Below, in pieces: positions 175-13,844 of a stretch of DNA of 64,000 bases. The stretch is taken from the NCBI GenBank assembly GCA_035570235.1, contig DATMML010000072.1, forward strand, positions 1 to 64,000, read 5' to 3'. The position numbers and the translations under genes are program-made. The stretch's first letter is position 1; the number at the start of each line of letters is the position of its first letter. The notes under the pieces are model-generated. The model was not told where the DNA came from and did no database searches. It saw only the letters and a program-made list of their open reading frames with translations. This DNA is from Vicinamibacteria bacterium (GTDB taxonomy: Bacteria > Acidobacteriota > Vicinamibacteria > Fen-336).

Positions 175-741
175 GAGCTGCCGGCGGGGAGCCCTAGCGA
201 CAGACTCAGCGGTGTCCCATCCTTTCGCCCTCGCCGCCAGGTGAGTCTCATCCCTTGGGGATCCAACCGTGCTCTCGAATGCGGCCCAGCGCGGCCGAGT
301 CCATCTGGAAGGCGGGCGTGAATTGCCGGCATCGTGGGCCCTCCGCTGCTGCGTCCGTCGGACTGTGATCGCCTCTTGGGTCATTTGTCGGAGGCACCGA
401 CCCATGAGCAGACTCCCCTGATTTTGGACAGGTCTCACCGATCCGGAGCAACACGACGATATCGCAGGCTGGCCGCTTGTTCACGAGCCCTCGGGAAGCC
501 GAAGGCTGCGGTGCCCAAGGCGGCGGGGAACGAATCCAGGTCAAGCAAGCGCACGGGGAGCGTTGTGAACTAAAGGCTATGAACATTTATCTTGACATAT
601 ATGACGAGAGCGATTATTTTGGGCGAATCTTGTGGAGCCTGTTGAGAGCCGTTGTCCGATCCATCATCACAACCGAGGGGGGCGATGACGGCTGGGGGCG
701 GGCAAGACCGTCGGAAACCTAGGCCCGCGGAGGACTTGACT
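175..741. other. Intergenic region between divergent genes
   Basis: About 570 bp between the leftward signal-peptide gene and the 14-gene rightward operon. Short reading frames occur on both strands but none has a recognisable motif or ribosome binding site. It holds the predicted operon promoter (592-620) and one copy of the CTTGTTCACG half-site (476-485) seen in front of other genes here. Confidence 0.5.
592..620 (+). promoter_or_regulatory. Sigma-70-type promoter of the 14-gene operon
   Basis: TTGACA (592-597) and TATTTT (615-620) are separated by 17 bp. The predicted start near 627 gives a leader of about 115 nt before the receptor ATG at 742. This is pattern matching only. Confidence 0.5.
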
Positions 742-3561
742 ATGAAACTGCACCGACGTGGTAGTCAGTTCGTCGTTCTGCTCCTAATCGTGTTGGGTAC
801 CGCGCGAGTCGATTGGGCACAGATGACGACGGGCGCCATTGATGGCACGGTGGTAGACCAGAGCTCGGCGGTTCTCCCTGGGGCGGCCATCACCGTCACC
901 GATGAGGCCACGGGACGCACGCGGACGACCACGACCTCCCCCCAAGGCTTCTTCCGCATCGACTCTCTGCCCCCGGGCACCTACACCGTGCGAGCTGAGC
1001 TTCACGGCTTCAAGCCCGGCGAGTACCGGGGGGTAGTCCTGGCGGGAACCAAGGTGGTGACGGTCCCGCTTTCGTTGGGGATCGCGAGCGGAGCAGAGCA
1101 GGTCGACGTGCTTGGAGAGGCACCTCTGGTAAATGTCACCCAGGACCAACTCAAGACGCAGGTGGACAGCCAGATGATGCACGACCTTCCCATCAGCAGC
1201 CGCCGTTTCCAGGATCTCGCCCTCCTCGTCGCGGGCGTGAACCTGGACCTCGCCTCGAGCCAGGGAGGGACGAGCGATCCCATTGCCTTCTTCGGGTTCG
1301 ACGAGCGCAACAAGGCGCTCTACGTCGACGGGGTGGACCTGAATGACGAGCTGACCCGCGGCGGAACGGTGATCACGAATGCGCCGCGGAACGAATACTC
1401 GATGGAGGCCATCGAGGACATGGAGGTATTGCAGAACCAGTTCTCCGCCGAGGTGGGCCGGGCGCAAGCGGGGGTCGTAAACATCATCACCCGCAGCGGG
1501 ACCAACGACTTCCACGGGGCGGCTTTCTTCCTCGACCAGAGCGACGCCTTTGGCAGCAAGAACGTGTTTTCGACCGGGAAGATCCCGTTCAGCCTCAAGC
1601 AGTTCGGTGCCAACCTGGGTGGCCCGATCGTGAAGGACAAGACGCACTTCTTCCTAAGCTACGAGCGTTCCACTCAGACGAGAGTCTCCACGATCACGAT
1701 CCCGGCCGCCCTTCTTCCAATCCTTCCCGATCCACGCACCGAGATTCCGCAGGATGAAGATCACGACAACTTGTTCGCGAAGCTGACCCACAACCTGAGC
1801 CCGAGCAACGTCCTGAATTTCAGCTACAACTACAACCACAAAATCAAGGACGGGCAGTCCGCCGGTCCCAACGCGGCCGCGAACGCGCGCTTCAGCGAAC
1901 TACGCAGCGACCATCTGCTCATCGCGCGGTTGACCTCCACTCTTGGCAGCCGTGCGACGAACGAAATACGCGCGTCCTATTCGCACACCGACACCAACCG
2001 CCCCGTGGCGGTCAACACGCCCGGGCTGGTGTTCCCCAGTCTGAACGTCGGGACTCCGAGCAACCTGCCCCAGGGGCGGATGCAGAACAACTACATTCTG
2101 AAGGACGTGTACACGGGGCAGTTTTCCGGGGCCGGTGAGCACGCGCTGAGGGTCGGGGCCGGGATGAACATCGTCCGGTATCCTACAAAGTTGAACCTTT
2201 TCCAGTTTGGCCGTTTCACCTTCGCCAAGGACGAGCCACCAGGGCCGAACAATCCCCCCATCTTGTACATCCTGGGCCAGTACAACAGCGAGTTCGCTCA
2301 CCTGGATGGCAACTACTTCGACGGGTTCGCGCAGGACGACTGGAGGGTGACGCCTCGCCTCACTCTGAACCTAGGCCTGCGCTACGACCTCGAGACCTTC
2401 ACCGGCTCGTATTCAGGCGCCGACTACCCACCGTTCACGAGCCAGGACCAGGGCGTCCAATTCCTGCTCACGACTCTGCCGGGCGCCGCCAACGCGAACA
2501 CGATCTACCGATCCCGGAACACGGACCATGGCGAAATCCAGCCCCGCGTCGGGTTCAACTGGGCGGCCACCAAGGACGGTCGGACCTCAGTCCGCGGGGG
2601 CTACGGGATCTTCTATGAGGGCGGCCAGGACCCGATCTCGGTCGAGGGCACCCTGGCCCAAGGCAGGGCTCAAACGTTCGTGGCTCCGGGAAGAGTATTC
2701 CCGCTGCTCAGCTTCTACCCGAACATGCCGCCGCCGGACCTCCTGAACAAGTTCTTCCGCATCTCCCTGATTTCCCAATTCCCCGGCGTCTTCATCCAGT
2801 CGGCCTACGCCCACCAGTTTACGATCGGGGCGGAGCGGCAATTGCCGGGAGACATCTCCATCGCAGTCGACTACGCGGGGATTCGCAGCCGCCACAATCC
2901 CCACAGCGTCAACGTCAATCACCCGGCGACACCCGGCTCCGGCGCGTCCGTCTTGAACGGCCAGTACCCCTACGGGGCAAACTACGGTCCGGTCACCGTC
3001 GACCTGTCCGACGGCGTGGTCAACACCGATGCCGTGATGGTGCAGATTCGCCGACAGTTCAGCCGGAGGGTTGGGCTCCTGATCGGCTACACGTTCTTGA
3101 AAGCCAACCAGGACGGGCCCTCATCGTCTCCATATTTGCTGGCGTCGGACTACGGCCCGACCCCCAACGACATCCGTCACCACCTGTCGGCGAGCATCCA
3201 CGTGAGGCTCCCTTGGGAGCTCGAGGTTTCGGGGATCGTGACCGCCTCTTCCGCTTTCCCGTACAACGAACTTGCCGGAACGGATGTCACCGGGGATGGA
3301 GACCCAACCAATGACCGGCCACCCGGGGTGACGTACGACTCCCTCCGCGGCGACCGGTACTTCGACGCCGACCTGCGCGTGAGCAAGAACGTGAAGTTCG
3401 GACGCCGCTACACGATCCAGGTCATCGCCGAGGCCTTCAACCTCTTCAACACCACGAACTACAACAACTACATAGGGACGGTAACCAGCCCGTTGTTCCA
3501 AAAGCCGGTCCAGGCAATGAATCCCTTCCAGGCACAACTGGGTGCGCGTTTCTCGTTCTGA
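742..3561 (+). CDS. TonB-dependent receptor, Oar-like, with carboxypeptidase-regulatory-like domain
   Basis: Outer-membrane transporter of 939 aa, probably energised by TonB, for a substrate that cannot be read from sequence. It has a signal peptide ending near WAQ, a carboxypeptidase-regulatory-like beta-sandwich at about residues 28-110 (GAIDGTVVDQSSAVLPGA; DSLPPGTYTV), a plug region (ITRSGTNDFHGAAFF) and a long beta-barrel ending in RFSF with the C-terminal Phe used for barrel assembly. The frame opens upstream at a TTG (652), but the ATG at 742 has GCGGAGGA 8 nt before it and starts directly on the signal peptide. It is first in a run of fourteen co-directional genes, so it probably imports their substrate. 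Family assignment is secure; specificity is unknown. Confidence 0.9.
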   Translation: MKLHRRGSQFVVLLLIVLGTARVDWAQMTTGAIDGTVVDQSSAVLPGAAITVTDEATGRTRTTTTSPQGFFRIDSLPPGTYTVRAELHGFKPGEYRGVVLAGTKVVTVPLSLGIASGAEQVDVLGEAPLVNVTQDQLKTQVDSQMMHDLPISSRRFQDLALLVAGVNLDLASSQGGTSDPIAFFGFDERNKALYVDGVDLNDELTRGGTVITNAPRNEYSMEAIEDMEVLQNQFSAEVGRAQAGVVNIITRSGTNDFHGAAFFLDQSDAFGSKNVFSTGKIPFSLKQFGANLGGPIVKDKTHFFLSYERSTQTRVSTITIPAALLPILPDPRTEIPQDEDHDNLFAKLTHNLSPSNVLNFSYNYNHKIKDGQSAGPNAAANARFSELRSDHLLIARLTSTLGSRATNEIRASYSHTDTNRPVAVNTPGLVFPSLNVGTPSNLPQGRMQNNYILKDVYTGQFSGAGEHALRVGAGMNIVRYPTKLNLFQFGRFTFAKDEPPGPNNPPILYILGQYNSEFAHLDGNYFDGFAQDDWRVTPRLTLNLGLRYDLETFTGSYSGADYPPFTSQDQGVQFLLTTLPGAANANTIYRSRNTDHGEIQPRVGFNWAATKDGRTSVRGGYGIFYEGGQDPISVEGTLAQGRAQTFVAPGRVFPLLSFYPNMPPPDLLNKFFRISLISQFPGVFIQSAYAHQFTIGAERQLPGDISIAVDYAGIRSRHNPHSVNVNHPATPGSGASVLNGQYPYGANYGPVTVDLSDGVVNTDAVMVQIRRQFSRRVGLLIGYTFLKANQDGPSSSPYLLASDYGPTPNDIRHHLSASIHVRLPWELEVSGIVTASSAFPYNELAGTDVTGDGDPTNDRPPGVTYDSLRGDRYFDADLRVSKNVKFGRRYTIQVIAEAFNLFNTTNYNNYIGTVTSPLFQKPVQAMNPFQAQLGARFSF

Positions 3562-3580
3562 GGCGAAAGGAGCCCATTCC

Positions 3581-4105
3581 ATGCGTCGATTGACGGTTCT
3601 GGCTTTCGGGCTGGCCTTTTTCGCGATGGCCGGCGCTCCCGCTAGGGGGACGCCCCAGGCCAGCACACAAGCTAACAAGCCGGCCGAGCGGGCCAAGGCG
3701 GAGGAGGGGAAGGTGGCACCAAAGGCCGGGGCCACCGCGGCGAAAGTGCTGCCCTCCGGCTTCGATCTCGAGAAGTATTTCTCGGAGATGGAGGAAGACG
3801 TCGCCGTCTACGATCCCGCGTCGCCTTGGATCTACGAGGGCAAGGCCGCCTGGCGCAAGCGAGTCGAGCAGATGGTCAAGATTCGCCAGTTCCTGGACCT
3901 GAACCAGTTCCATAAGACCGAAGTTGAGCTGGGCGACATGAAGATTGTGACCGTATACCGGGAAATCCGTCGCGTGGAGGGAAGCATGACTTCCCGCCTG
4001 CATGGCCGCATCACGTGGGTCTACCTCAAACAGCCGGATGGGCGCTGGTTCCTCTGGCACGATCACACCTCGGAGATCCCCGAGGACTACTCGTACGGCA
4101 AGTAG
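3581..4105 (+). CDS. NTF2-like (SnoaL/DUF4440-type) secreted protein
   Basis: A 174-aa protein with a signal peptide (MRRLTVLAFGLAFFAMAG), then a low-complexity Ala/Lys linker and an NTF2-like alpha+beta fold at about residues 60-174. The fold is suggested by the pattern of an alpha-helical start, a central YDPASPWIYEGKAAW segment and a last strand with WVYLKQPDGRWFLWHDH. ATG 3581 follows GAAAGGAG; the frame is open further upstream inside the receptor gene. It lies 19 bp after the receptor and 8 bp before a second NTF2-like gene. NTF2-like folds are used for small-molecule isomerases, hydratases and subunits without activity, so the function is open. Confidence 0.65.
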   Translation: MRRLTVLAFGLAFFAMAGAPARGTPQASTQANKPAERAKAEEGKVAPKAGATAAKVLPSGFDLEKYFSEMEEDVAVYDPASPWIYEGKAAWRKRVEQMVKIRQFLDLNQFHKTEVELGDMKIVTVYREIRRVEGSMTSRLHGRITWVYLKQPDGRWFLWHDHTSEIPEDYSYGK

Positions 4106-4113
4106 GAGGAGCC

Positions 4114-4608
4114 ATGAAGATCCCGTCCATGACGTTTCTTGCCATTGCCCTCGCCGGCTTCGCCGCGGGCCCGGCCACGGCCCAGATTGACACCAGCACC
4201 GATGAGGGCCAGATCAACCAAACGCTGCGGGACGTGCGCCTTGCCCTCGCCACGGGCGACATCGACGGCGCCATGAAGTTCTACTGGAACGATCCAAGAA
4301 TGACGGTCATCGACCCCGACGAGGGCATTCGGCTCAACGGCTGGACTTACTACAAAACGTGGCTTTCTGACCGAGCCTCCGTGCAGAAGACCCTCCTTTG
4401 GCGTGCCCACGAGCGGAAGCTTCATGTCAGGGGCAACAATGCATACGTGACCTTCCTGGTTACGCGGCAGGTCCAGATGGGCAACATGGTTCGGCAGCAA
4501 AACGAGCGTGGTACCTATGTCTTGAAGAAGATGGACGGCAAGTGGCTCATCGTGGCCCAGCACATTTCCGCCTGGCCCCAGATGGTGCTCTTCCAGCAAA
4601 CCAAGTGA
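4114..4608 (+). CDS. NTF2-like (SnoaL/DUF4440-type) secreted protein
   Basis: A 164-aa protein with a signal peptide (MKIPSMTFLAIALAGFAAG, cleavage near ATAQ) and a typical SnoaL-like sequence: the helical start DEGQINQTLRDVRLALATGD, then DPRMTVIDPDEGIRLNGW, and a final strand with MDGKWLIVAQHISAW. ATG 4114 follows AGGAGGA with 3-nt spacing, which is a strong ribosome binding site. It differs clearly in sequence from the NTF2-like protein just upstream (3581-4105), so the two may form a heteromer or act on successive intermediates (inference). Exported in the same operon as a receptor and periplasmic amidohydrolases. Confidence 0.7.
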   Translation: MKIPSMTFLAIALAGFAAGPATAQIDTSTDEGQINQTLRDVRLALATGDIDGAMKFYWNDPRMTVIDPDEGIRLNGWTYYKTWLSDRASVQKTLLWRAHERKLHVRGNNAYVTFLVTRQVQMGNMVRQQNERGTYVLKKMDGKWLIVAQHISAWPQMVLFQQTK

Positions 4609-4627: not shown

Positions 4628-5917
4628 GTGACGCCCACCAGCCGCCTCATGGCGTTCTTCGCGTCTGCGACCCTGGTGGCGGCGCTCCCTGCCACTGGAC
4701 AGGGCCGTCCTACCGCCATCCGGAACGCCACGATCTTCCCGGTTGTGGGCCCGCCGATCCCGGGAGGATCGATAGTCTTCGACAAGGGCCGCATCATCGC
4801 CCTCGGCCGGGGGGTCGCGGTTCCGCCGGGCGCGGACGTGGTAGACGGCACCGGTCTCTACGTACTGCCAGGCCTCATCGATCCCCATTCCCATCTCGGG
4901 GTGTCGAGCTGGCCATCGGTGGCCGCCAACAATGACACGAACGAGGCCACTGACCCAGTTACGCCTCAGGTGCGCGTCATCGATGGCTTCAACGTGGACG
5001 ACCCGGCCATTCGGCGCGTGGTTGCAGCAGGCGTCACCACCATCCAGGTCTTCCCGGGTAGCACCAACGTGATTGGTGGGGAAGGGGCGGTCTTCAAGCT
5101 CAAGGTTGGTGGGGGGCTCGCCGAGATGCTGTTCCCGGGCGCGCCCCGCCTGATGAAGATGGCCATGGGCGAGAATCCGAAGGCAACCTATGGCCCTAGG
5201 GGCCAGCTTCCCGCAACCCGCATGGGCATTTTCGCCCTTCTCCGTGATGCGTTCGGGAAGGCGCGCGAATACCGTGAGCGGTGGGATCGCTGGGAGTCGC
5301 TGCCGGAGGACAAGCGGGGCCCGGCCCCCGCTCGCGATCTAAAGCTCGAACCGCTGGCCGAGATCCTTCGTGGACGGATGCGCGTCCACATCCACTGCTA
5401 CAGGAAGGACGAGTTCCTCACTCTGCTGCGAATCGCAGACGAATTCGGCTTCAAGATTACCTCCTTCCAACATGCGATGGAGTCCTACAAGATAGCCGAC
5501 GAACTCGCCCGGCGGGGCGTGGCCGTGTCTGTGTACCCCGACGCTTTCGGACGCAAGATCGAACACTGGGACCAGATTCCCCAGAACGCCGCCTTCATGA
5601 ACGCGATGGGCGTCCTGATGACCCTCCACTCAGACTTTCCCTTCTTCGCTCAGCGCTTGAGCACCGAGGCCGCTAAGCTCATCAAGTATGGCGGCATCTC
5701 TGAAGAGGACGCGCTCAAGAGCATCACCCTGAACCCCGCCCGCCTCATCGGTATCGAGAAGTGGGTCGGCAGCCTCGAAGTGGGGAAGCATGCGGACATC
5801 TCCGTCTTCAACCGGCACCCCTTCGACTCGTTCACACTCTGCCAGAGGACGTACATCGACGGAGAGCTGGTTTTCGACCGCCAAAGGGACCAAGCATGGC
5901 TTGCCCGATACGAGTGA
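4628..5917 (+). CDS. Metal-dependent amidohydrolase (imidazolonepropionase-like), exported
   Basis: A 429-aa amidohydrolase-superfamily enzyme expected to cleave a C-N bond in a cyclic or linear amide. It keeps the ligand set: HSH at residues 87-89 (PGLIDPHSHLG), a His in VHIHCYR near 253, a His in FQHAMES near 280 and an Asp in LHSDFP near 335. The C-terminal half-barrel and small beta-domain are present (SITLNPARLIGIEKW, GSLEVGKHADISVF). The N-terminus is hydrophobic and ends ALPATGQG, consistent with export. The GTG at 4628 is used; an in-frame ATG at 4649 is possible and neither has a strong ribosome binding site. It overlaps the next gene, a ligand-less paralog, by 22 bp. Confidence 0.85.
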   Translation: MTPTSRLMAFFASATLVAALPATGQGRPTAIRNATIFPVVGPPIPGGSIVFDKGRIIALGRGVAVPPGADVVDGTGLYVLPGLIDPHSHLGVSSWPSVAANNDTNEATDPVTPQVRVIDGFNVDDPAIRRVVAAGVTTIQVFPGSTNVIGGEGAVFKLKVGGGLAEMLFPGAPRLMKMAMGENPKATYGPRGQLPATRMGIFALLRDAFGKAREYRERWDRWESLPEDKRGPAPARDLKLEPLAEILRGRMRVHIHCYRKDEFLTLLRIADEFGFKITSFQHAMESYKIADELARRGVAVSVYPDAFGRKIEHWDQIPQNAAFMNAMGVLMTLHSDFPFFAQRLSTEAAKLIKYGGISEEDALKSITLNPARLIGIEKWVGSLEVGKHADISVFNRHPFDSFTLCQRTYIDGELVFDRQRDQAWLARYE

Positions 5918-7230
5918 AGGATCTCTTCCTGGGGAGCCTTGCCGGAGGCTTGCTCCTCTCCGGGGTCGCGCTCTACGGCCAAGGCGTCGGAGCGAAGGTC
6001 GGGGGCCCTCGAGTTGCCGGCCACGACCTCGCCATCCGCAACGTCGAGATCCTGACCGTCTCCGGCGCTCGGATCTCCCATGGAACCATCATCTTGAGGG
6101 GGGAGCGCATCGCGGCGCTAGGCACCTCGGTCGCCGTGCCCAGCGGAGCGGAGGTAGTAGACGGCAGTGGCCTGACGGCGTGCCCAGGCTTCTTCGACGC
6201 CTTTAGCGGTCTCGGCTTGACCGAGATCGCGAACGTGCCCGCGTCAAACGACAGCCAGGAAACGGCAGACCCGATCACCCCGCAGCTGCGGGCCAGCGAC
6301 AGCTACTTCCTCGACTCGGAGCTGCTTCCAGTCGTGAGGGCGGCTGGGATCCTCACGGTCCTCTCGGCCCCGGGGCCAGGGGCGGTCATCGCGGGGCAGG
6401 CCGCGCTCATGCGCACCGCGGGGGGCACCGTCGAAGAGGCGGGCTTGCAAGACGTGGCGGGCCTGCTCGTCAACCTCGGGGAACCGCCCAAGCGTGCTTT
6501 CGGAGAGCGGGGCAAGGCGCCTCAGACGCGGATGGGTATTGCGGCGCTCCTCCGGCAAACGCTCATGCAGGGCCGGGAATACGCGGCCAAGCGGGCGGCG
6601 GACGCCAAGGTGCCGGTCGACTCTCGCCTCGAACCCGTGGCCGCCGCTCTGGCCGGCCGGGCGCGCGTGCTGGTGCGGGCTCATCGCCGGGATGATATCC
6701 TCACCGCCCTCCGCTTCGCCGACGAGTTTGGTCTCAAGCTCGTTCTTGTAGGCGGCAGCGATGCCCCCCGCCTGGCCGGTGAGCTGGCCAAGCGCGCCGT
6801 CCCGGTCATTCTCTGGATCGACCAGCAGCCTGATACTCCGGAGACGGCGGGAGCCAGCTACGACGCCGCGGCCGTGCTGCAGCGCGCGGGGGTTCGAGTG
6901 GCCTTCGGATCGAACGAGACCACTCTCTCGCGGCAGCTCGTCGCAAATGTCGGTCTTGCCGTGGCCTATGGTCTGCCTTACGATGAGGCGTTGAAAGCCC
7001 TGACACTCTCCGCCGCCCAGATCTTCGGGGTGGATGACCGGCTGGGCAGCCTCGAAGTGGGCAAGGAAGCCACACTATTCCTTAGCCGGGGCGACCCCCT
7101 TCAGGTCACGTCTCGGGTAGTGTCGGTGTTCGTGCGAGGGGCACGCTACGAACCACGAAGCTACCAGACGTCGCTCTGCGAGCAGTACATCGCGCCGAAG
7201 AAGGGAACGATCTCATGTCTGCCCAAGTGA
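5896..7230 (+). CDS. Amidohydrolase-fold paralog lacking the metal ligands (probable pseudoenzyme)
   Basis: A 444-aa protein with the same fold and layout as the upstream amidohydrolase: VRNVEIL-type start, ITPQLRASDSY, a RMGIAALLRQTL helix, RFADEFGLKL and GSLEVGKEATLFL. Every position that should bind metal is changed: HSH is replaced in FDAFSGLG (~98-105), the VHIH His by Arg in VLVRAHR (~257), the FQHAM His is lost in GGSDAP (~286), and the Asp of LHSD is Asn in FGSNET (~336). ATG 5896 starts a signal peptide (KDLFLGSLAGGLLLSGVAL) and lies inside the upstream gene, so translation is probably coupled. It may be a partner subunit of its neighbour. Confidence 0.8.
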   Translation: MACPIRVKDLFLGSLAGGLLLSGVALYGQGVGAKVGGPRVAGHDLAIRNVEILTVSGARISHGTIILRGERIAALGTSVAVPSGAEVVDGSGLTACPGFFDAFSGLGLTEIANVPASNDSQETADPITPQLRASDSYFLDSELLPVVRAAGILTVLSAPGPGAVIAGQAALMRTAGGTVEEAGLQDVAGLLVNLGEPPKRAFGERGKAPQTRMGIAALLRQTLMQGREYAAKRAADAKVPVDSRLEPVAAALAGRARVLVRAHRRDDILTALRFADEFGLKLVLVGGSDAPRLAGELAKRAVPVILWIDQQPDTPETAGASYDAAAVLQRAGVRVAFGSNETTLSRQLVANVGLAVAYGLPYDEALKALTLSAAQIFGVDDRLGSLEVGKEATLFLSRGDPLQVTSRVVSVFVRGARYEPRSYQTSLCEQYIAPKKGTISCLPK

Positions 7231-8477
7231 ACGATCGCCGCCGATTCTTGACCGGGGCCCTGTCCGCACTGACCGCGGGGCTCGTGGCCCGGCCCTCACG
7301 CGTGGCGAGCGGCGAGGCGGAGACCCCGCCTCGCATCGGCAGAGAGCACTACGTGACCCTTGGCCGCACGGGCATGAGCGTCTCGCCCGTGGCCGCGGGG
7401 CTGAGCCTGAAGGCGAGCGACCTGGTCGCCGCCGCTGACGCTGGGATCAACTACTTCGACACCGCCGAGAAGTACTTGAACCTCGAGCACAACCGAATGG
7501 TGGGTCAAGCTCTCAAGGGGCGCGAGCGGAAGACCATCTTTGTCTCCGCGAAATTCCAGGACGGCCTTCAGAAGGAGCTGACCGCCAGCACCGACGAGAT
7601 CGTAATCCGCGTCAACCAGTGCCTGGAACGCCTCGGGACGGACTACATCGACTGCATGCTGATCCACAACGTGCAGAACCCCGATGCCCTGGACAACCCG
7701 AAATGGCTCGCCGCCTACGAGCGCCTGAAGACCGACGGCAAAGTGCGTTGTCTCGGCGCCTCGACCCACGACCCCAAGCTCTCGGACATTGTTGCTCGCA
7801 TCGTGCAGTCGAACCGCTATGACTTGATGCTGCTCGCCTACAACCCGACGACCGACGGGGACCTGTACGGCTCGCGCGGATGGCCGGCGATCCCGCGACT
7901 CCTCGAGGAGGCAGGCCGCAAGCAAATCGCGGTCTCCACCATGAAGGTCATGATCGGAGCGGTGGCGGCGGGCGCCGCCAAGGGCGTGGGACCGGACGGC
8001 ATCGACCCGAACGACATCAAGGCCCGCAGCAAGTACCTCGACGCCCGAATCGCCGCCACGCGTTGGGTGCTCAGTAACCCGAACGTGCACGTCGTGCAGT
8101 TCACGATGACGGGACCGGAGACGGTGGCCGCGGCGGTGACGGCAGCCACGACCCGCTTCACGGCGACGGACAAAGTGGTCGCTACGGCCTACCATCACGC
8201 GACCCGCGGCCAAGGCTGTCCGGTGCCATGCCCGGCCCCCTGCCTTGACGCCTGTCCGGCCGAGGTCGCGATCCCGGACGTGCTGCGGCACCGGATGTAC
8301 TACGAGCACTTCGGCCTGCAGAAGCAGGCCATGCTTGAGTACGGCGCGCTGCCCCCGGCCCAGCAGGCCCGCGTCTGCCTCGACTGCCCGAGCCAGGCCT
8401 GCGTCCAGGCGTGCCCGGAAGGCCGACCCGTGAAGGATCTGACGCGGGGGACGCACGCCCTGCTCACGCTGGCTTAG
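7215..8477 (+). CDS. TAT-exported aldo/keto reductase with C-terminal Fe-S cysteine cluster
   Basis: A 420-aa protein. The start carries a twin-arginine signal (DRRRFLTGALSALTAGLVA). The middle is an aldo/keto reductase barrel with the tetrad Asp and Tyr in FDTAEKY (~82-87), Lys in SAKF (~112) and His in LIHNVQNP (~150). The last ~90 residues hold eight Cys in ferredoxin-like groups (CPVPCPAPCLDACP and CLDCPSQACVQACP, ~334-400), expected to bind one or two [4Fe-4S] clusters. The TAT signal fits export of a folded, cofactor-loaded enzyme. It overlaps the previous gene by 16 bp. Periplasmic electron transfer to or from the substrate is an inference. Confidence 0.85.
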   Translation: MSAQVNDRRRFLTGALSALTAGLVARPSRVASGEAETPPRIGREHYVTLGRTGMSVSPVAAGLSLKASDLVAAADAGINYFDTAEKYLNLEHNRMVGQALKGRERKTIFVSAKFQDGLQKELTASTDEIVIRVNQCLERLGTDYIDCMLIHNVQNPDALDNPKWLAAYERLKTDGKVRCLGASTHDPKLSDIVARIVQSNRYDLMLLAYNPTTDGDLYGSRGWPAIPRLLEEAGRKQIAVSTMKVMIGAVAAGAAKGVGPDGIDPNDIKARSKYLDARIAATRWVLSNPNVHVVQFTMTGPETVAAAVTAATTRFTATDKVVATAYHHATRGQGCPVPCPAPCLDACPAEVAIPDVLRHRMYYEHFGLQKQAMLEYGALPPAQQARVCLDCPSQACVQACPEGRPVKDLTRGTHALLTLA

Positions 8478-8507: not shown

Positions 8508-9683
8508 ATGAACGAGCCCGCCGGCCGCATCTTCACGAAGAACTTCGTCGTTCTGAGCGCGTACGGGATGCTCGCCCTCGGGCTGTCCCTCATGCTCGTC
8601 ACCGGCCTGCCCCTCTACCTCAAGGGTCAGGGCTGGGAGCCGCAGCGCCTGGGCGCAACCCTCGGTGCGTACTTCCTCACGAGCATGATGGTGCGGCCGT
8701 TCGTCGGACGCGAGGCCGACCGCCGCGGTCGCAAGGCCATCCTCGTGGTGGGCGCGATCCTCATGCTGCTGCCGTGTCCCTTCTACCTGTTTCCGACTAC
8801 GGGAGTGGTGCTGGCCCTACGGATCGTCCAGGGCGTGGGCTGGGCGATGGCCACCACGGCCACTGCGGCCATGGCGTCCGAGATCGTCCCACCTGGCCGT
8901 ATAGGGGCCGGGATGGGCATCTTCGGGATCCTGAACGGCTTGGGCTTCACGTTCGGCCCCGCCCTGGGAGCCTATCTTCTGAACATTGGCGGGGGCAAGG
9001 CGTTCCTCGGTGCGGCGGCGGCGCTGGCGTCCGCGGTTCTCGTCTGCGGCTTGGTCATAGACGCCCCGCCGTCGCGAGGGGGCTCAGGGCTCACGTGGGG
9101 AGACTCGGCAACGCTTGCCCGAAGGCTGGGCCGTCCCCTGCTCGTGACCCTCGCCGTGAGCTTCGGGTACGGCGCCGTCCAGACATTCCTGCCCCTCTAC
9201 GCCCGGGCGTCGGGGGTCGCCAATCCGGGAGTCTTCTTCACGATCTTCTCGGTAATGTCCTTCGGGAGTCGTCCCGCCATGGGGAAGCTGTCGGACACCT
9301 GGGGCCGCAAGCCGACGGCGGCCCTCTTGATGCTCGTGATCGCGGCGACGTTCGCGCTCCTCAGCTACTCGGCGAGCCTGTCGTTCCTGGTGACGGCGGG
9401 CGCGTCCTACGGAATCGGTCACGGCGCCATCTACACGGTGCTGATGGCCCTTTTGGCCGATCTGACGCGTCCGCAGGACCGGGGCCTCGCATACGGCATC
9501 TTCGGAACCGCCATCGACCTCGGCATCAGCTGCGGCAACTTCGCCACCGGCGCTCTTGTCCAGCCCATCGGCTACGGGGGGGCGTTCCTTCTCGCGGCCG
9601 CGGTGGTCGTGGCTTCGCTGCCCGTGCTGCTGGGGCATAGACCAGCCCCGATGGTTAGTCCCAGCCCGGAGACAGTCAAGTGA
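8508..9683 (+). CDS. Major facilitator superfamily transporter
   Basis: A 391-aa inner-membrane protein with about 12 hydrophobic segments. The MFS signature between helices 2 and 3 is present (GREADRRGRK) with its repeat in the second half (GKLSDTWGRK). Helix 4-5 signatures are also seen (RIVQGVGWAMATT, GFTFGPALGAYL). The length is usual for the drug/sugar-efflux type. It overlaps the next gene by 4 nt (GTGA), showing tight coupling. Position between an exported reductase and cytoplasmic dehydrogenases suggests it carries the processed substrate inward, but export cannot be excluded. Confidence 0.85.
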   Translation: MNEPAGRIFTKNFVVLSAYGMLALGLSLMLVTGLPLYLKGQGWEPQRLGATLGAYFLTSMMVRPFVGREADRRGRKAILVVGAILMLLPCPFYLFPTTGVVLALRIVQGVGWAMATTATAAMASEIVPPGRIGAGMGIFGILNGLGFTFGPALGAYLLNIGGGKAFLGAAAALASAVLVCGLVIDAPPSRGGSGLTWGDSATLARRLGRPLLVTLAVSFGYGAVQTFLPLYARASGVANPGVFFTIFSVMSFGSRPAMGKLSDTWGRKPTAALLMLVIAATFALLSYSASLSFLVTAGASYGIGHGAIYTVLMALLADLTRPQDRGLAYGIFGTAIDLGISCGNFATGALVQPIGYGGAFLLAAAVVVASLPVLLGHRPAPMVSPSPETVK

Positions 9684-10414
9684 GTGACATTCAGGGCCAG
9701 GTCGCGCTCATCACCGGCGCGAGCCGTGGGATAGGCGAGGCGCTCGCCCGGGCCTTCCGCGGGGCGGGGATGCGGCTCGTCCTCTCGGCTCGTGGTTCAG
9801 AGGCCCTGCAAACGCTGGCCCACGAGCTGGACCCCGGCGGGCGTGAGGTCCTGGCCGTCCCCGGCAATGTCGGGGATAGCGCGTACTGTGAGCGCCTGAT
9901 CGCGGAGGCCGAGCGCGCCTTCGGAGCCATCGACGTCCTCGTCAACAACGCTGGCTTGGCAATCGGCGGGAAGATCGCGGAGACGCGGCTCGAGGATGTG
10001 GAGCTGATGGTAAGGGTGAACTTTCTCGGCGCCTACTACTGCACGCGCTTTGCGCTTCCGGGGATGATCGCGCGCCGCCGGGGGCACGTGGTGATGATGG
10101 ACTCGGTGGCGGGTATCAAGTACACCCCCGGGGCATCGATCTACTCCGCCACCAAGTTCGCTCTGCGCGCACTTGCGGAGGCCTTGCGCAACGAGGTCCA
10201 GTCCTACAACGTCAAAGTCACGGCGATCTATCCAGGCGTAACCCTAACGACCTACTTCGACCCGAGCAATCCAAAAGCCCTGCCGCCCCCTATGCCGCTC
10301 GAAGCCATGCTCACCTCCGAGGACGTGGCCGCGGCCACCCTCTCGGTTCTCGGGCTGCCCGATCGAGTATCGGTCAACACGGTCATCCTCAGGCCGACCA
10401 TCCAGGAGCGCTAA
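9680..10414 (+). CDS. Short-chain dehydrogenase/reductase
   Basis: A 244-aa cytoplasmic NAD(P)-dependent oxidoreductase. Visible motifs are the glycine-rich loop TGASRGIG, the NNAG strand motif and the catalytic YSATK. Ser in MMDSVAG completes the active site. The start is GTG, overlapping the TGA of the MFS gene. The next gene starts 1 bp after its stop. A second, unrelated-enough SDR (11642) lies two genes down, so two separate oxidation or reduction steps are likely. The substrate is unknown. Confidence 0.85.
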   Translation: MSDIQGQVALITGASRGIGEALARAFRGAGMRLVLSARGSEALQTLAHELDPGGREVLAVPGNVGDSAYCERLIAEAERAFGAIDVLVNNAGLAIGGKIAETRLEDVELMVRVNFLGAYYCTRFALPGMIARRRGHVVMMDSVAGIKYTPGASIYSATKFALRALAEALRNEVQSYNVKVTAIYPGVTLTTYFDPSNPKALPPPMPLEAMLTSEDVAAATLSVLGLPDRVSVNTVILRPTIQER

Positions 10415-10415
10415 G

Positions 10416-11630
10416 GTGGCGGACGAGGGAAGGGAGCCGGCGGTGGAAGACCTGGGGCGATGGCGAGCGGAGTTCCCGATCCTGGAGCGATCGGTTTACA
10501 TGATCAGCAACTCTCTAGGTGCCATGCCCCGGGGCGCGGCCGACGGCCTTGCCAAGTACGCCGAGACCTGGGCCACGCGCGGCATCCGGGCCTGGGAAGA
10601 GACGTGGTGGGAGCTGGCCGGGCAGGTCGGCAACAAGGTGGCCGGAATCATCGGAGCTCCGCAAGCGTCCGTCAGCATGCACGAGAACGTGACCACGGCC
10701 GAGACGGTGGTGCTCTCCTGCTTACGGCCGGAAGGCCATCGCCGGAAGATCGTGTGCTTGGAGATGGACTTCCCTTCCCTCATTTACCTCTACCGTGCCC
10801 ACGAGCCCTTGGGCTTCGAGGTCGCACTCGTGCCCTGCGAGCCCGATCTCACGACCTCCGTGGAGCGCCTGCTGCAGGCAATCGACGAGTCTACGCTCTT
10901 GGTCGCGCTCTCCCATGTGCTCTTCCGGAGCTCCTACATCATGGACGTGCTGCCGATCGTCAGGCGAGCGCACGCGGTGGGAGCGAGAGTCGTTCTCGAT
11001 ACTTACCAGTCGGCCGGCATCATCCCGGTGGACGTGACCGCGCTGAACGTGGACTTCGCGGTCGGAGGTTGCCTCAAGTGGCTGTGCGGCGGTCCGGGCA
11101 ACGCGTTCCTCTACACAAGGCCGGATCTCATGGGGGCTCTCGTCCCGCGGTTCACGGGCTGGGTGGGTCATCGTGATCCCTTCGCCTTCGACACCGGACC
11201 CATGACGCCGAGGGTCGACGCGCTCCGGATGATGAACGGCACCCCCTCGATCCCGGCCTATTACGCGGCCATTGCCGGCCTCGACATCGTGCGGGAGATC
11301 GGGGTCGAGCGTATCCGCGCGAAGTCAAAGAAGATGACGACTCATCTCTTCGACCTGATCGACAGAAACGGCTTCAGCTCCACGGCGTCCCGCTATCCGG
11401 AGCGGTTGGCGGGCACGGTGGCCCTAACGGTGCCCGACGCGAAATACGTGGCTCGTACCCTCAAGGCTCTCGACTTCTTGGTGGACTACCGGGTGGGCTC
11501 CGGGATACGCATCTCGCCGCACTTCTACAACACGTTTGAAGAGCTGGACCGCCTGATCGCGGAGGTGGTTCGCATCGTGAAGACGAAGGACTACGACATG
11601 ACCGCGCCGTTCACGTCTTTGGTGACCTGA
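10416..11630 (+). CDS. Kynureninase-like PLP-dependent enzyme (aminotransferase class V fold)
   Basis: A 404-aa fold-type I PLP enzyme. Kynureninase-type signatures are YMISNSLGAMP near the start, the PLP-ring Asp in DTYQSAGIIPVD, and the PLP Lys in GGCLKWLCGGPGNAFLY (about residue 223). The C-terminal domain includes SGIRISPHFYNTFEELD. Kynureninases cleave beta-carbonyl amino acids to alanine and a carboxylic acid; relatives act as epimerases or cysteine desulfurases, so the exact reaction is not settled. The start is GTG, 1 bp after the SDR stop. The benzoate-CoA-ligase-like gene of the same operon would suit an aromatic acid product (inference). Confidence 0.8.
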   Translation: MADEGREPAVEDLGRWRAEFPILERSVYMISNSLGAMPRGAADGLAKYAETWATRGIRAWEETWWELAGQVGNKVAGIIGAPQASVSMHENVTTAETVVLSCLRPEGHRRKIVCLEMDFPSLIYLYRAHEPLGFEVALVPCEPDLTTSVERLLQAIDESTLLVALSHVLFRSSYIMDVLPIVRRAHAVGARVVLDTYQSAGIIPVDVTALNVDFAVGGCLKWLCGGPGNAFLYTRPDLMGALVPRFTGWVGHRDPFAFDTGPMTPRVDALRMMNGTPSIPAYYAAIAGLDIVREIGVERIRAKSKKMTTHLFDLIDRNGFSSTASRYPERLAGTVALTVPDAKYVARTLKALDFLVDYRVGSGIRISPHFYNTFEELDRLIAEVVRIVKTKDYDMTAPFTSLVT

Positions 11631-11641
11631 GGTCGTCCACT

Positions 11642-12388
11642 ATGACGGAGCGAGTCGCGCTGGTAACAGGGGCCGCGGGAGGTATCGGCCTAGCGACCTG
11701 TCGAGCCCTCCTCGCCCGGGGTGGGGCTGTGATCGGCGTCGACTTGGACGAAGACCGGCTCTCCCAGTCCCGCGCGCGCCTCGTGGACTCGGGGCTCCTG
11801 GGTTTCACGACCTACTGCGCCGATCTCACGGACGCGGCGAAGGTTGCGGAGCTCTTCGCATGGGTCGAGCAACAGCACCAGGGTCTGGACGTGCTCGTCA
11901 ACAACGCGGGCACCTGCATTTGCACAGAGTTCGTCGACATCTCGCCAGACGAGCTGCGCCGGCAGATGGCCATCAACTTCGACAGCGCCTTTTACTGCTG
12001 TCAGCACGCGATCCCGCTCATGCTGAAGCGGCCAGGGATCAAGAAGATCGTCAACATCTCCTCGAACGGAGCCTACAACTTCGATGTGTTCGACCCCGCC
12101 CACTACCGAGCGAGTAAGGCCGCCCTCGACACGCTCACAAAGCACTTGACGCGGCGCTATGCGCGCGAGGGGATCGCCGTGAACTCGATTGCCCCGGCCA
12201 TGACCCGGACCGACCTTTTCAAGGTGGTAGGTCCGGAAGTGCTGGAGAAGGCGCTGGCCGCCATGCCGCGGGGCCGGCCCCTCGAGCCCGATGAAGTCGC
12301 GGCTTGGGTGGCGTTTCTTGCCTCTCCGGCCGGCGACTGCGCAAGCGGTAACGTCATCATTCTGAACCAAGGCCGCGATGTCCGTTGA
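11642..12388 (+). CDS. Short-chain dehydrogenase/reductase (3-oxoacyl-ACP reductase-like)
   Basis: A 248-aa SDR with TGAAGGIG at the nucleotide site, an acidic VDLDED after strand 2 (favouring NAD over NADP), VNNAGTC, the catalytic Ser in NISSNGAY and YRASK. The C-terminus (GNVIILNQGRD) matches the classical family. ATG 11642 is 11 bp after the PLP gene and the gene overlaps the permease by 11 bp. The substrate is unknown; its pairing with the SDR at 9680 points to two redox steps in one pathway. Confidence 0.85.
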   Translation: MTERVALVTGAAGGIGLATCRALLARGGAVIGVDLDEDRLSQSRARLVDSGLLGFTTYCADLTDAAKVAELFAWVEQQHQGLDVLVNNAGTCICTEFVDISPDELRRQMAINFDSAFYCCQHAIPLMLKRPGIKKIVNISSNGAYNFDVFDPAHYRASKAALDTLTKHLTRRYAREGIAVNSIAPAMTRTDLFKVVGPEVLEKALAAMPRGRPLEPDEVAAWVAFLASPAGDCASGNVIILNQGRDVR

Positions 12389-13844
12389 TCCCTCCGCGCC
12401 GAGCAGAGCCGCATCCTCCGATCTCCGGAACCACCCGAGCGTTCAAAGAGAGCAGGGATTGGCCCGTCAGCTTGGTGTGCGGCAGCAGGCGATGCTTGCG
12501 GTCGGGGGGGCCATCGGCACCGGGCTCTTCCTGGGCAGCGGCCTCTCCGTTGCCCGGGCCGGCCCGGGCGTGATCATTTCCTACCTGTTTGCGGCCGTGA
12601 TCGCGCTGCTGCTGGGGTTCGCGCTGACCGAGATGTGTGTCGCCCACCCCACGGCCGGCTCTTTCGGGGTCTACGCCGAGATGTACTTATCACCCTTCGC
12701 CGGCTATGCCGTTCGCCTCAGCTACTGGATGATGCAGGTGGTGTCCACCGGCGGGCACATGGTGGCGGTCTCCATCTACATGCAGTACTGGTTTCCGCGG
12801 GTTCCGGGAGCGGTCTGGGTTGTCGGGTTCTCTCTCGTGCTCGTGTGGCTGAACGCGCGCGCGGTGGGGGTCTACGGTGAGCTCGAGTACTGGTTCGTGA
12901 TGATCAAGGTGGTGGCGGTCGTCGTCTTCATCATGCTCGGCCTCGGCCTCCTCCTCGGCTGGACCGGCAAGCCTGCGATCGGCTTCAGGCATTTCACCGC
13001 GGATGGGGGCTTCTTCCCATTGGGTCTGACCGGGGTCTGGCTGGCCTGTTCCTTCGTCATTTACTCGTTTATCGGCGTCGAGGTAGTAGCAGTCACCTCG
13101 GGAGAGGCGGTGAATCCCGAGCGCACGATTCCCCGCGCCATGATCCGGATGATTCTCGGCCTGTCCGCGATCTACATCACGACGGTGGTGGTGCTGGTTG
13201 GGATCATGCCCTGGAGGGATGCAGGAGCGGACGAGAGCCCCTTCGTGACCGTCCTGGGCCGGACGGGGATACTGGGGGCGGCCGGGCTCATGAACTTTGT
13301 AGTTCTGACTGCAGCGCTCTCCGCGGCCAACGCGAATCTTTACCTTGTGGCGCGGACACTTTTCTCCCTGGCCCGCGCGGGATTCGTGCCTGAGTCGGTG
13401 GGCCGTGTCAACGACAGGGGGACGCCGGTGAACGCGCTCGTCACCTCGAGCCTGGGCCTCGCCCTGGCCGTGCTCGTGCGTTGGCTCTGGCGGGACTCGG
13501 CTTACGTCTGGTTCCTGGGTGTGGCCCTTTTTGGGGCGCTGCTGGTCTGGATCATGATCTTCGTGGTTCACCTCGCGTTCCGACGAGCCTGGGAGCGCGT
13601 GGATCGCGCGCCCTTGCCTTTCCGCAGTCCCGTCGGAAGAGCCGGCTCGGTCGTCGGCGCGTTGCTCGTCGGGGCAATCCTCATCACGACCTGGTGGGTC
13701 CCGGGGCTCCGCTCCACCCTGTTGGCGGCCGGGCCATGGATTGCCGTGCTCGCCGTCGGCTACGGTTTTTTACGGCCCAAGAATGAAGGAGCAGCGCCGG
13801 TGGCCCCGCGCATTCCGGGGCCCGCCGGAGCCGCTACGAAATAG
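12378..13844 (+). CDS. Amino acid permease (APC superfamily)
   Basis: A 488-aa inner-membrane transporter with about 12 helices. Helix 1 has the unwound APC signature (AVGGAIGTGLFLGSG), followed by ISYLFAAVIALLLGF and ALTEMCVAHPTAGSFGVYAE. Helix 6 carries SFIGVEVVAVTSGEAVNPER, as in the GABA/proline/asparagine permease branch. The ~40-residue cytoplasmic start includes a stretch unrelated to the family. The gene sits between an SDR and the XRE-cupin regulator in the operon, so it probably imports an amino-containing substrate or product. Confidence 0.88.
   Translation: MSVDPSAPSRAASSDLRNHPSVQREQGLARQLGVRQQAMLAVGGAIGTGLFLGSGLSVARAGPGVIISYLFAAVIALLLGFALTEMCVAHPTAGSFGVYAEMYLSPFAGYAVRLSYWMMQVVSTGGHMVAVSIYMQYWFPRVPGAVWVVGFSLVLVWLNARAVGVYGELEYWFVMIKVVAVVVFIMLGLGLLLGWTGKPAIGFRHFTADGGFFPLGLTGVWLACSFVIYSFIGVEVVAVTSGEAVNPERTIPRAMIRMILGLSAIYITTVVVLVGIMPWRDAGADESPFVTVLGRTGILGAAGLMNFVVLTAALSAANANLYLVARTLFSLARAGFVPESVGRVNDRGTPVNALVTSSLGLALAVLVRWLWRDSAYVWFLGVALFGALLVWIMIFVVHLAFRRAWERVDRAPLPFRSPVGRAGSVVGALLVGAILITTWWVPGLRSTLLAAGPWIAVLAVGYGFLRPKNEGAAPVAPRIPGPAGAATK

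Follow-up and report, generated by a model that had tools for sequence, protein, structure and literature searches.

A ligand-less paralogue as the probable partner subunit of an exported bacterial amidohydrolase

Two overlapping genes in the window (the whole stretch of 64,000 nucleotides of Vicinamibacteria DNA that was analysed) encode an active amidohydrolase, P1, and a paralogue, P2, in which the canonical metal ligands are replaced. We consider it probable (about 0.8) that one exported enzyme, an ancient obligate heteromer, is formed by P1 as its catalytic and P2 as its non-catalytic subunit. Sequence comparison across genomes strongly suggests a P1–P2 heterodimer. The evidence comes from the purifying selection acting on P2, the adjacency of active and ligand-less domains across phyla, their mirrored trees and their repeated natural fusion.

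The P1–P2 gene pair

The two proteins are encoded head to tail and share 38% identity (Table 1). The P2 gene extends from the ATG at 5896 to the stop at 7230; the longest ORF opens at 5761, but the signal-like N-terminus belongs to the start at 5896. Export of both proteins is predicted from their hydrophobic N-termini. By far the nearest solved structure for both is 3ooq (TM0814, an amidohydrolase of Thermotoga maritima with unknown function), matched by P1 at E=1e-86 with residues 31–419 aligned and by P2 at E=1e-52. Both also score above the curated cut-offs of Pfam Amidohydro_1/3. These broad amidohydrolase models are the only ones that pass, as every match to NCBIfam models is far under its cut-off.

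The first-pass annotation had described in P1 an HSH motif, two further His residues and an Asp, which were located as H87/H89, H256, H282 and D336. The four P2 motifs that it listed instead (FDAFSGLG, VLVRAHR, GGSDAP and FGSNET) do lie at the ligand sites, where F103, G105, R261, G286 and N340 share alignment columns with the five P1 ligands. Its statement that P2 has every ligand replaced holds for these five canonical residues but not for the Glu at the end of beta-4, which is retained as E196. Judged from its conservation, this Glu (E182 in P1) may plausibly act as a sixth, bridging metal ligand. TM0814 has all ligands and the GEN Glu in common with P1; with its ligands intact it is, in contrast to P2, not a pseudoenzyme.

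Despite the exchanges at the metal site, P2 keeps the fold. The AlphaFold2 model of P2 has a pLDDT of 88.8, mostly above 90 in the core, and a pTM of 0.86. It superimposes on 3ooq with a TM-score of 0.94 (Foldseek), so that amidohydrolase barrel and beta-sandwich are kept. An intact, overlapping gene for a protein of the same fold, as initially proposed, is thus confirmed.

Table 1. Features of the P1–P2 pair and of the surrounding operon (window positions).
Feature	Position	Strand	Basis
TonB-dependent outer-membrane receptor, first gene of the conserved operon	652..3561	+	about 52% identical in three genomes
SnoaL-like protein 1	3542..4105	+	family match, orthologous loci
SnoaL-like protein 2, likely ATG 4114	4114..4608	+	family match, orthologous loci
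P1, active amidohydrolase, TM0814-like, 429 aa, GTG start, predicted exported	4628..5917	+	3ooq match, five ligands
P1 H87 and H89 (HSH, end of beta-1), metal ligands	4886..4894	+	invariant in active-domain alignment
P1 E182 (GEN motif, end of beta-4), possible bridging ligand	5171..5173	+	active-domain conservation
P1 H256 (VHIHCYR), metal ligand, beta-5	5393..5395	+	active-domain alignment
P1 H282 (FQHAMES), metal ligand, beta-6	5471..5473	+	active-domain alignment
P1 D336 (HSDFPF), catalytic/metal Asp, beta-8	5633..5635	+	active-domain alignment
Overlap of P1 3' end and P2 5' end, 22 nt	5896..5917	+	sequence
P2, ligand-less paralogue, pseudoenzyme, 444 aa, predicted exported	5896..7230	+	3ooq match, AlphaFold2, Foldseek
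P2 F103 and G105 where HxH is expected	6202..6210	+	alignment; Y/G in orthologues
P2 E196, kept counterpart of P1 E182	6481..6483	+	alignment
P2 R261 at the beta-5 His position	6676..6678	+	alignment
P2 G286 at the beta-6 His position	6751..6753	+	alignment
P2 N340 at the beta-8 Asp position	6913..6915	+	alignment
Aldo/keto reductase, twin-Arg-like N-terminus, Cys-rich C-terminus	7215..8477	+	family match, orthologous loci
MFS transporter	8508..9683	+	family match, orthologous loci
Short-chain dehydrogenase (SDR), final gene of the operon common to the other family	9680..10414	+	family match

P2 is maintained by selection

Three genomes from a different family within the class carry orthologues of both proteins, about 60% identical, with the residues HHHHD at the ligand sites of P1 and YGRGN at those of P2. 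Pairwise dN/dS among three orthologous genomes is 0.11–0.15 for P1 and 0.15–0.16 for P2. The two genes are under similar purifying selection and P2 is not decaying, as its dN/dS is nearly as low as that of P1 and the P1–P2 operon recurs in another family. A frameshifted P2 orthologue, which would have spoken for decay, was sought and none was found; the orthologues are intact and adjacent to P1.

The tandem position, the 38% identity and the absence of all five canonical ligands would also fit a young copy of P1 that is turning into a pseudogene. We regard this as very improbable, because of the low dN/dS among P2 orthologues, a P2 reading frame free of internal stops, the rejection of a P1+P2 clade by the AU test (p=4e-7), and the grouping of all ligand-less domains in one old clade. 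By dN/dS and AU test, decay or recent duplication of P2 is ruled out.

Active domains and their ligand-less neighbours

In the following, B denotes the active domain, A an upstream and C a downstream ligand-less homologue. A profile built from active enzymes only was scanned over about 85,000 species genomes. The 80 loci used are the best of 323 confirmed relatives, with more distant active enzymes falling outside the sample, and represent at least a dozen phyla. Within these best 80 of 323 loci, 79 active domains have 1.5 kb or more of downstream sequence, and 75 of them are followed on the same strand by a ligand-less homologue, at a median gap of 157 nt. An upstream one is present at 44 of the 70 active domains with enough upstream sequence in the same loci. 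Solitary pseudo-domains were not seen in this set except near contig ends. In the proposed check for adjacency in other genomes, pseudo-domains had an active domain beside them if the contig extended far enough. Both this rule across phyla and the second pseudo-subunit of many lineages had escaped the first-pass annotation.

The four active domains without a downstream ligand-less homologue are all from Bacillota (two are solitary and one locus is a tandem of two active domains). The Bacillota relatives lack a signal-like N-terminus as well as a pseudo-partner, whereas in the lineages outside Bacillota the partner is present and most have hydrophobic, signal-like N-termini. In a Clostridia MAG (L128:6082-8415), tandem copies both have all ligands and no signal-like N-terminus; they possibly represent the state of the pair before the loss, or else an independent duplication.

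The distribution of ligands is sharply divided. Among 136 adjacent pseudo-domains, none keeps all five: 96 have no ligand left, 28 have one, 11 have two and a single one has three. The active domains have lost no ligand at any readable position; HxH is present in 92 of 92 and the beta-4 Glu in 89 of 93. At the site of the beta-6 His, Gly is found in 75 of 85 downstream pseudo-domains. Ligand loss in P2 is not a matter of chance, since every one of the 136 adjacent pseudo-domains has lost ligands as well and none of the readable active ones has.

Origin and conservation of the pseudo-domains

In an IQ-TREE mixture-model tree computed after removal of the ligand columns, all pseudo-domains fall on one side of a branch (support 92/75), and the active/pseudo split amounts to one change in 95% of the bootstrap trees. 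FastTree recovered the same split from all 228 domains (support 0.913). One ancestral loss of the metal ligands is favoured by these trees, short of proof in view of the moderate branch support and some long branches.

Active and ligand-less domains share their history. The trees of B and C are alike (Mantel r=0.855 for 78 loci, a value that no permutation reached), as are those of A and B (r=0.829). This mirroring reflects joint inheritance and is, taken alone, no proof of contact.

The set of metal-site positions comprised seven residues: the five ligands, a conserved Lys and the beta-4 Glu. In B these are the most conserved (top-residue frequency 0.98 versus 0.58 elsewhere), while in C (0.36 versus 0.50) and in A (0.33 versus 0.46) they are below average. 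Strongly conserved residues of the C domain are located away from the lost ligands (in P2 numbering, for example G107, E110, D119, R148, R346 and L427). Selection thus appears to have let go of the metal site but to have retained the scaffold and clade-specific surfaces, as would be expected for a subunit.

Two other functions of P2 have to be weighed against this pattern. P2 might act on its own in the periplasm as a binding or sensing protein, with its old pocket holding the substrate or a pathway regulator and no stable complex being formed with P1. In four orthologues of the P2 lineage, the residues G, R, G and N at former ligand sites and the retained Glu are indeed identical, and the nearby motifs NDSQE, RAHRRDDIL and SNETTLSRQ are unchanged. 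However, conservation of the pocket in this lineage does not significantly exceed that of the remaining protein (0.66 versus 0.56, p=0.35). In the wider family the pocket positions vary freely while the gene persists beside that of the enzyme, a pattern more in keeping with a structural role than with binding. We consider a binding protein unlikely.

Less likely still is that P2 is an enzyme in its own right, using another metal site or a chemistry that requires no metal. Its intact fold would allow this, and many Asp and Glu residues are conserved together with E196 across the four orthologues. An alternative metal site, named at the outset as possible counter-evidence to a partner role, was looked for in the P2 orthologues, but no conserved set of His or Cys residues was detected. 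The sole conserved His is H263, displaced by two residues from the position of the former beta-5 ligand; the conserved Cys residues, C428 and C441, are both C-terminal and more likely form a disulfide than a metal site. Further, the former ligand positions are conserved below average in the wider pseudo-clade, which is unlike an active site.

Architectures and natural fusions

The downstream pseudo-domains form distinct lineages. In clade C-I (23 domains), the A gene is absent from all 21 testable loci; in clade C-II (59 domains), A is present in 48 of 50. P2 represents a third, early-branching lineage, which is also a pair without A. In other members of the window's own family, B is located between ligand-less A and C, and A and B are fused in three genomes. 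At two loci of this family (L046:2948-5475 and L047:2721-5251) we noticed a second, divergent pair of an active and a pseudo-domain (X–Y); in its active member Thr replaces the GEN Glu, and its pseudo member has HST, T, DG and TG.

Natural fusions occur as single open reading frames, eight of the type B–C and 15 of the type A–B, two of these being A–B–C. On the tree of active domains they require at least four (B–C) and at least eight (A–B) changes. Repeated 1:1 fusion to the enzyme would not be needed by a free binding protein. For the 870-residue B–C fusion of Pyxidicoccus, AlphaFold2 gave a pTM of 0.81 with about 12% of the residues under pLDDT 50. This pTM is higher than two independently floating domains would be expected to give, so that in the model the relative placement of the domains looks confident and the protein looks like one packed unit. 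Foldseek searches of the PDB with the B–C fusion returned single-chain matches only, which are silent on the interface.

The linker between A and B contains in several phyla an extra stretch of about 110 residues, which has a common RG.W start and is probably beta-rich (L075, L081, L085, L099, L102, L104, L106, L111 and L125). At six loci (L062, L138, L139, L143, L148 and L151), the second pseudo-domain is located 3' of C rather than 5' of B; this B–C–D order is a rearranged triad.

A possible mechanism and related systems

The low dN/dS, the intact adjacent orthologues, the natural fusions and the adjacency support the original proposal that P2 is a structural or regulatory partner rather than a product of decay. 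An enzyme with a non-catalytic subunit could have arisen when the gene of an ancestral homo-oligomer was duplicated and one copy lost its metal site while retaining barrel and interface, the enzyme then becoming dependent on the inactive copy. A later duplication of the pseudoenzyme would have added A upstream, giving the A–B–C triads of most other lineages. P1 and P2 would be made together from their overlapping genes, exported to the periplasm and assembled through an interface that is probably ancestral. P1 would bind the metal or metals and hydrolyse a C–N bond of a small molecule. P2 would take the place of one protomer, help to shape and stabilize the active site of P1 and, by analogy to the M16B peptidases, complete its cleft.

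In M16B peptidases, homologous metal-binding and metal-less subunits are encoded by adjacent genes in bacteria and are fused in M16A and M16C; the subunit without metal gives the active centre its shape and also binds the substrate (PMC11266112). These pairs (the alpha and beta subunits of mitochondrial processing peptidase, and bacterial two-gene operons) resemble P1–P2 and its relatives in the combination of an active and a metal-less homologue, in adjacency and in fusions. The fold is unrelated, however, and M16B has one pseudo-subunit per active one where the family of P1–P2 often has two. Another comparison is offered by 2-aminoisobutyrate hydroxylase, AibH1H2, a heterodimer related to the amidohydrolase superfamily. 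AibH2 is catalytic and AibH1 probably structural, yet AibH1 keeps a metal centre, the chelating residues of which are required for solubility (PMC12141560). Like the proposed P1–P2 complex, AibH1H2 joins a catalytic to a mainly structural related protein, but it has a metal centre in both subunits, where P2 has no ligands, and belongs to another subfamily with another chemistry. Amidohydrolase-fold pseudoenzymes that assemble with partners are represented by CRMP/dihydropyrimidinase and by inactive dihydroorotase domains. These belong to other subfamilies and are not known to occur as a rule in tandem with an active paralogue.

Adjacency and fusion could also be explained by a shared pathway or localization, and the Bacillota relatives without a pseudo-partner imply that this fold can in principle be catalytic on its own. 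We still prefer the heteromer for P1–P2. Its extension to a widespread class of bacterial exported hydrolases is more tentative, and we would put it at slightly less than even odds: the active barrel would be obligatorily held by one pseudo-barrel (pair) or between two (A–B–C triad). The pseudo-barrels would go back to a single ancient event in which the metal site was lost, followed by duplication of the pseudoenzyme, and would either complete the active site of the subunit in the middle or gate it.

A prior description of an active/ligand-less pair was not found in the literature searched, from which subscription journals were mostly absent, and two- or three-part enzymes of this kind are apparently widespread and undescribed. 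As the family models indicate only a generic amidohydrolase, the pseudo-subunits are likely to be named hydrolases although they lack the usual metal binding. If the complex is real, expressing only the active gene would be unsuccessful or misleading; this may partly explain why a function is missing for this group. Pairs, triads, independent fusions and the solitary Bacillota relatives together provide a large natural data set on the dependence of an enzyme on an inactive copy.

The operon of the pair

In the three orthologous loci, the conserved operon has the order TonB receptor, SnoaL-like proteins, P1, P2, aldo/keto reductase, MFS transporter and SDR. The combination of a TonB receptor, an exported hydrolase, an inner-membrane transporter, a reductase and a dehydrogenase suggests that a small amide or cyclic-imide-like compound is taken up and degraded. 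No hint to the substrate was obtained from family models or from conserved neighbours in 10 loci elsewhere. Among these 10 loci, a flanking gene common to the phyla was not found (by a crude choice of ORFs, several of them without a family), and the cluster of active and ligand-less domains thus behaves as a self-contained module.

Downstream of the conserved operon, the window encodes a kynureninase-like PLP enzyme, a second SDR and an amino-acid permease (10416–13844), for which no counterparts were found in the orthologous loci L152–L154. The two SnoaL-like genes (3542–4608) correspond in the orthologous operons to one reading frame with reversed order, the part similar to the second protein coming first (L152:9758-10753, L153:7644-8597 and L154:10504-11430). 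The Cys-rich C-terminal segment of the aldo/keto reductase (7215–8477) contains CPVPCPAPCLDACP and CLDCPSQACVQACP, which could bind iron–sulphur clusters.
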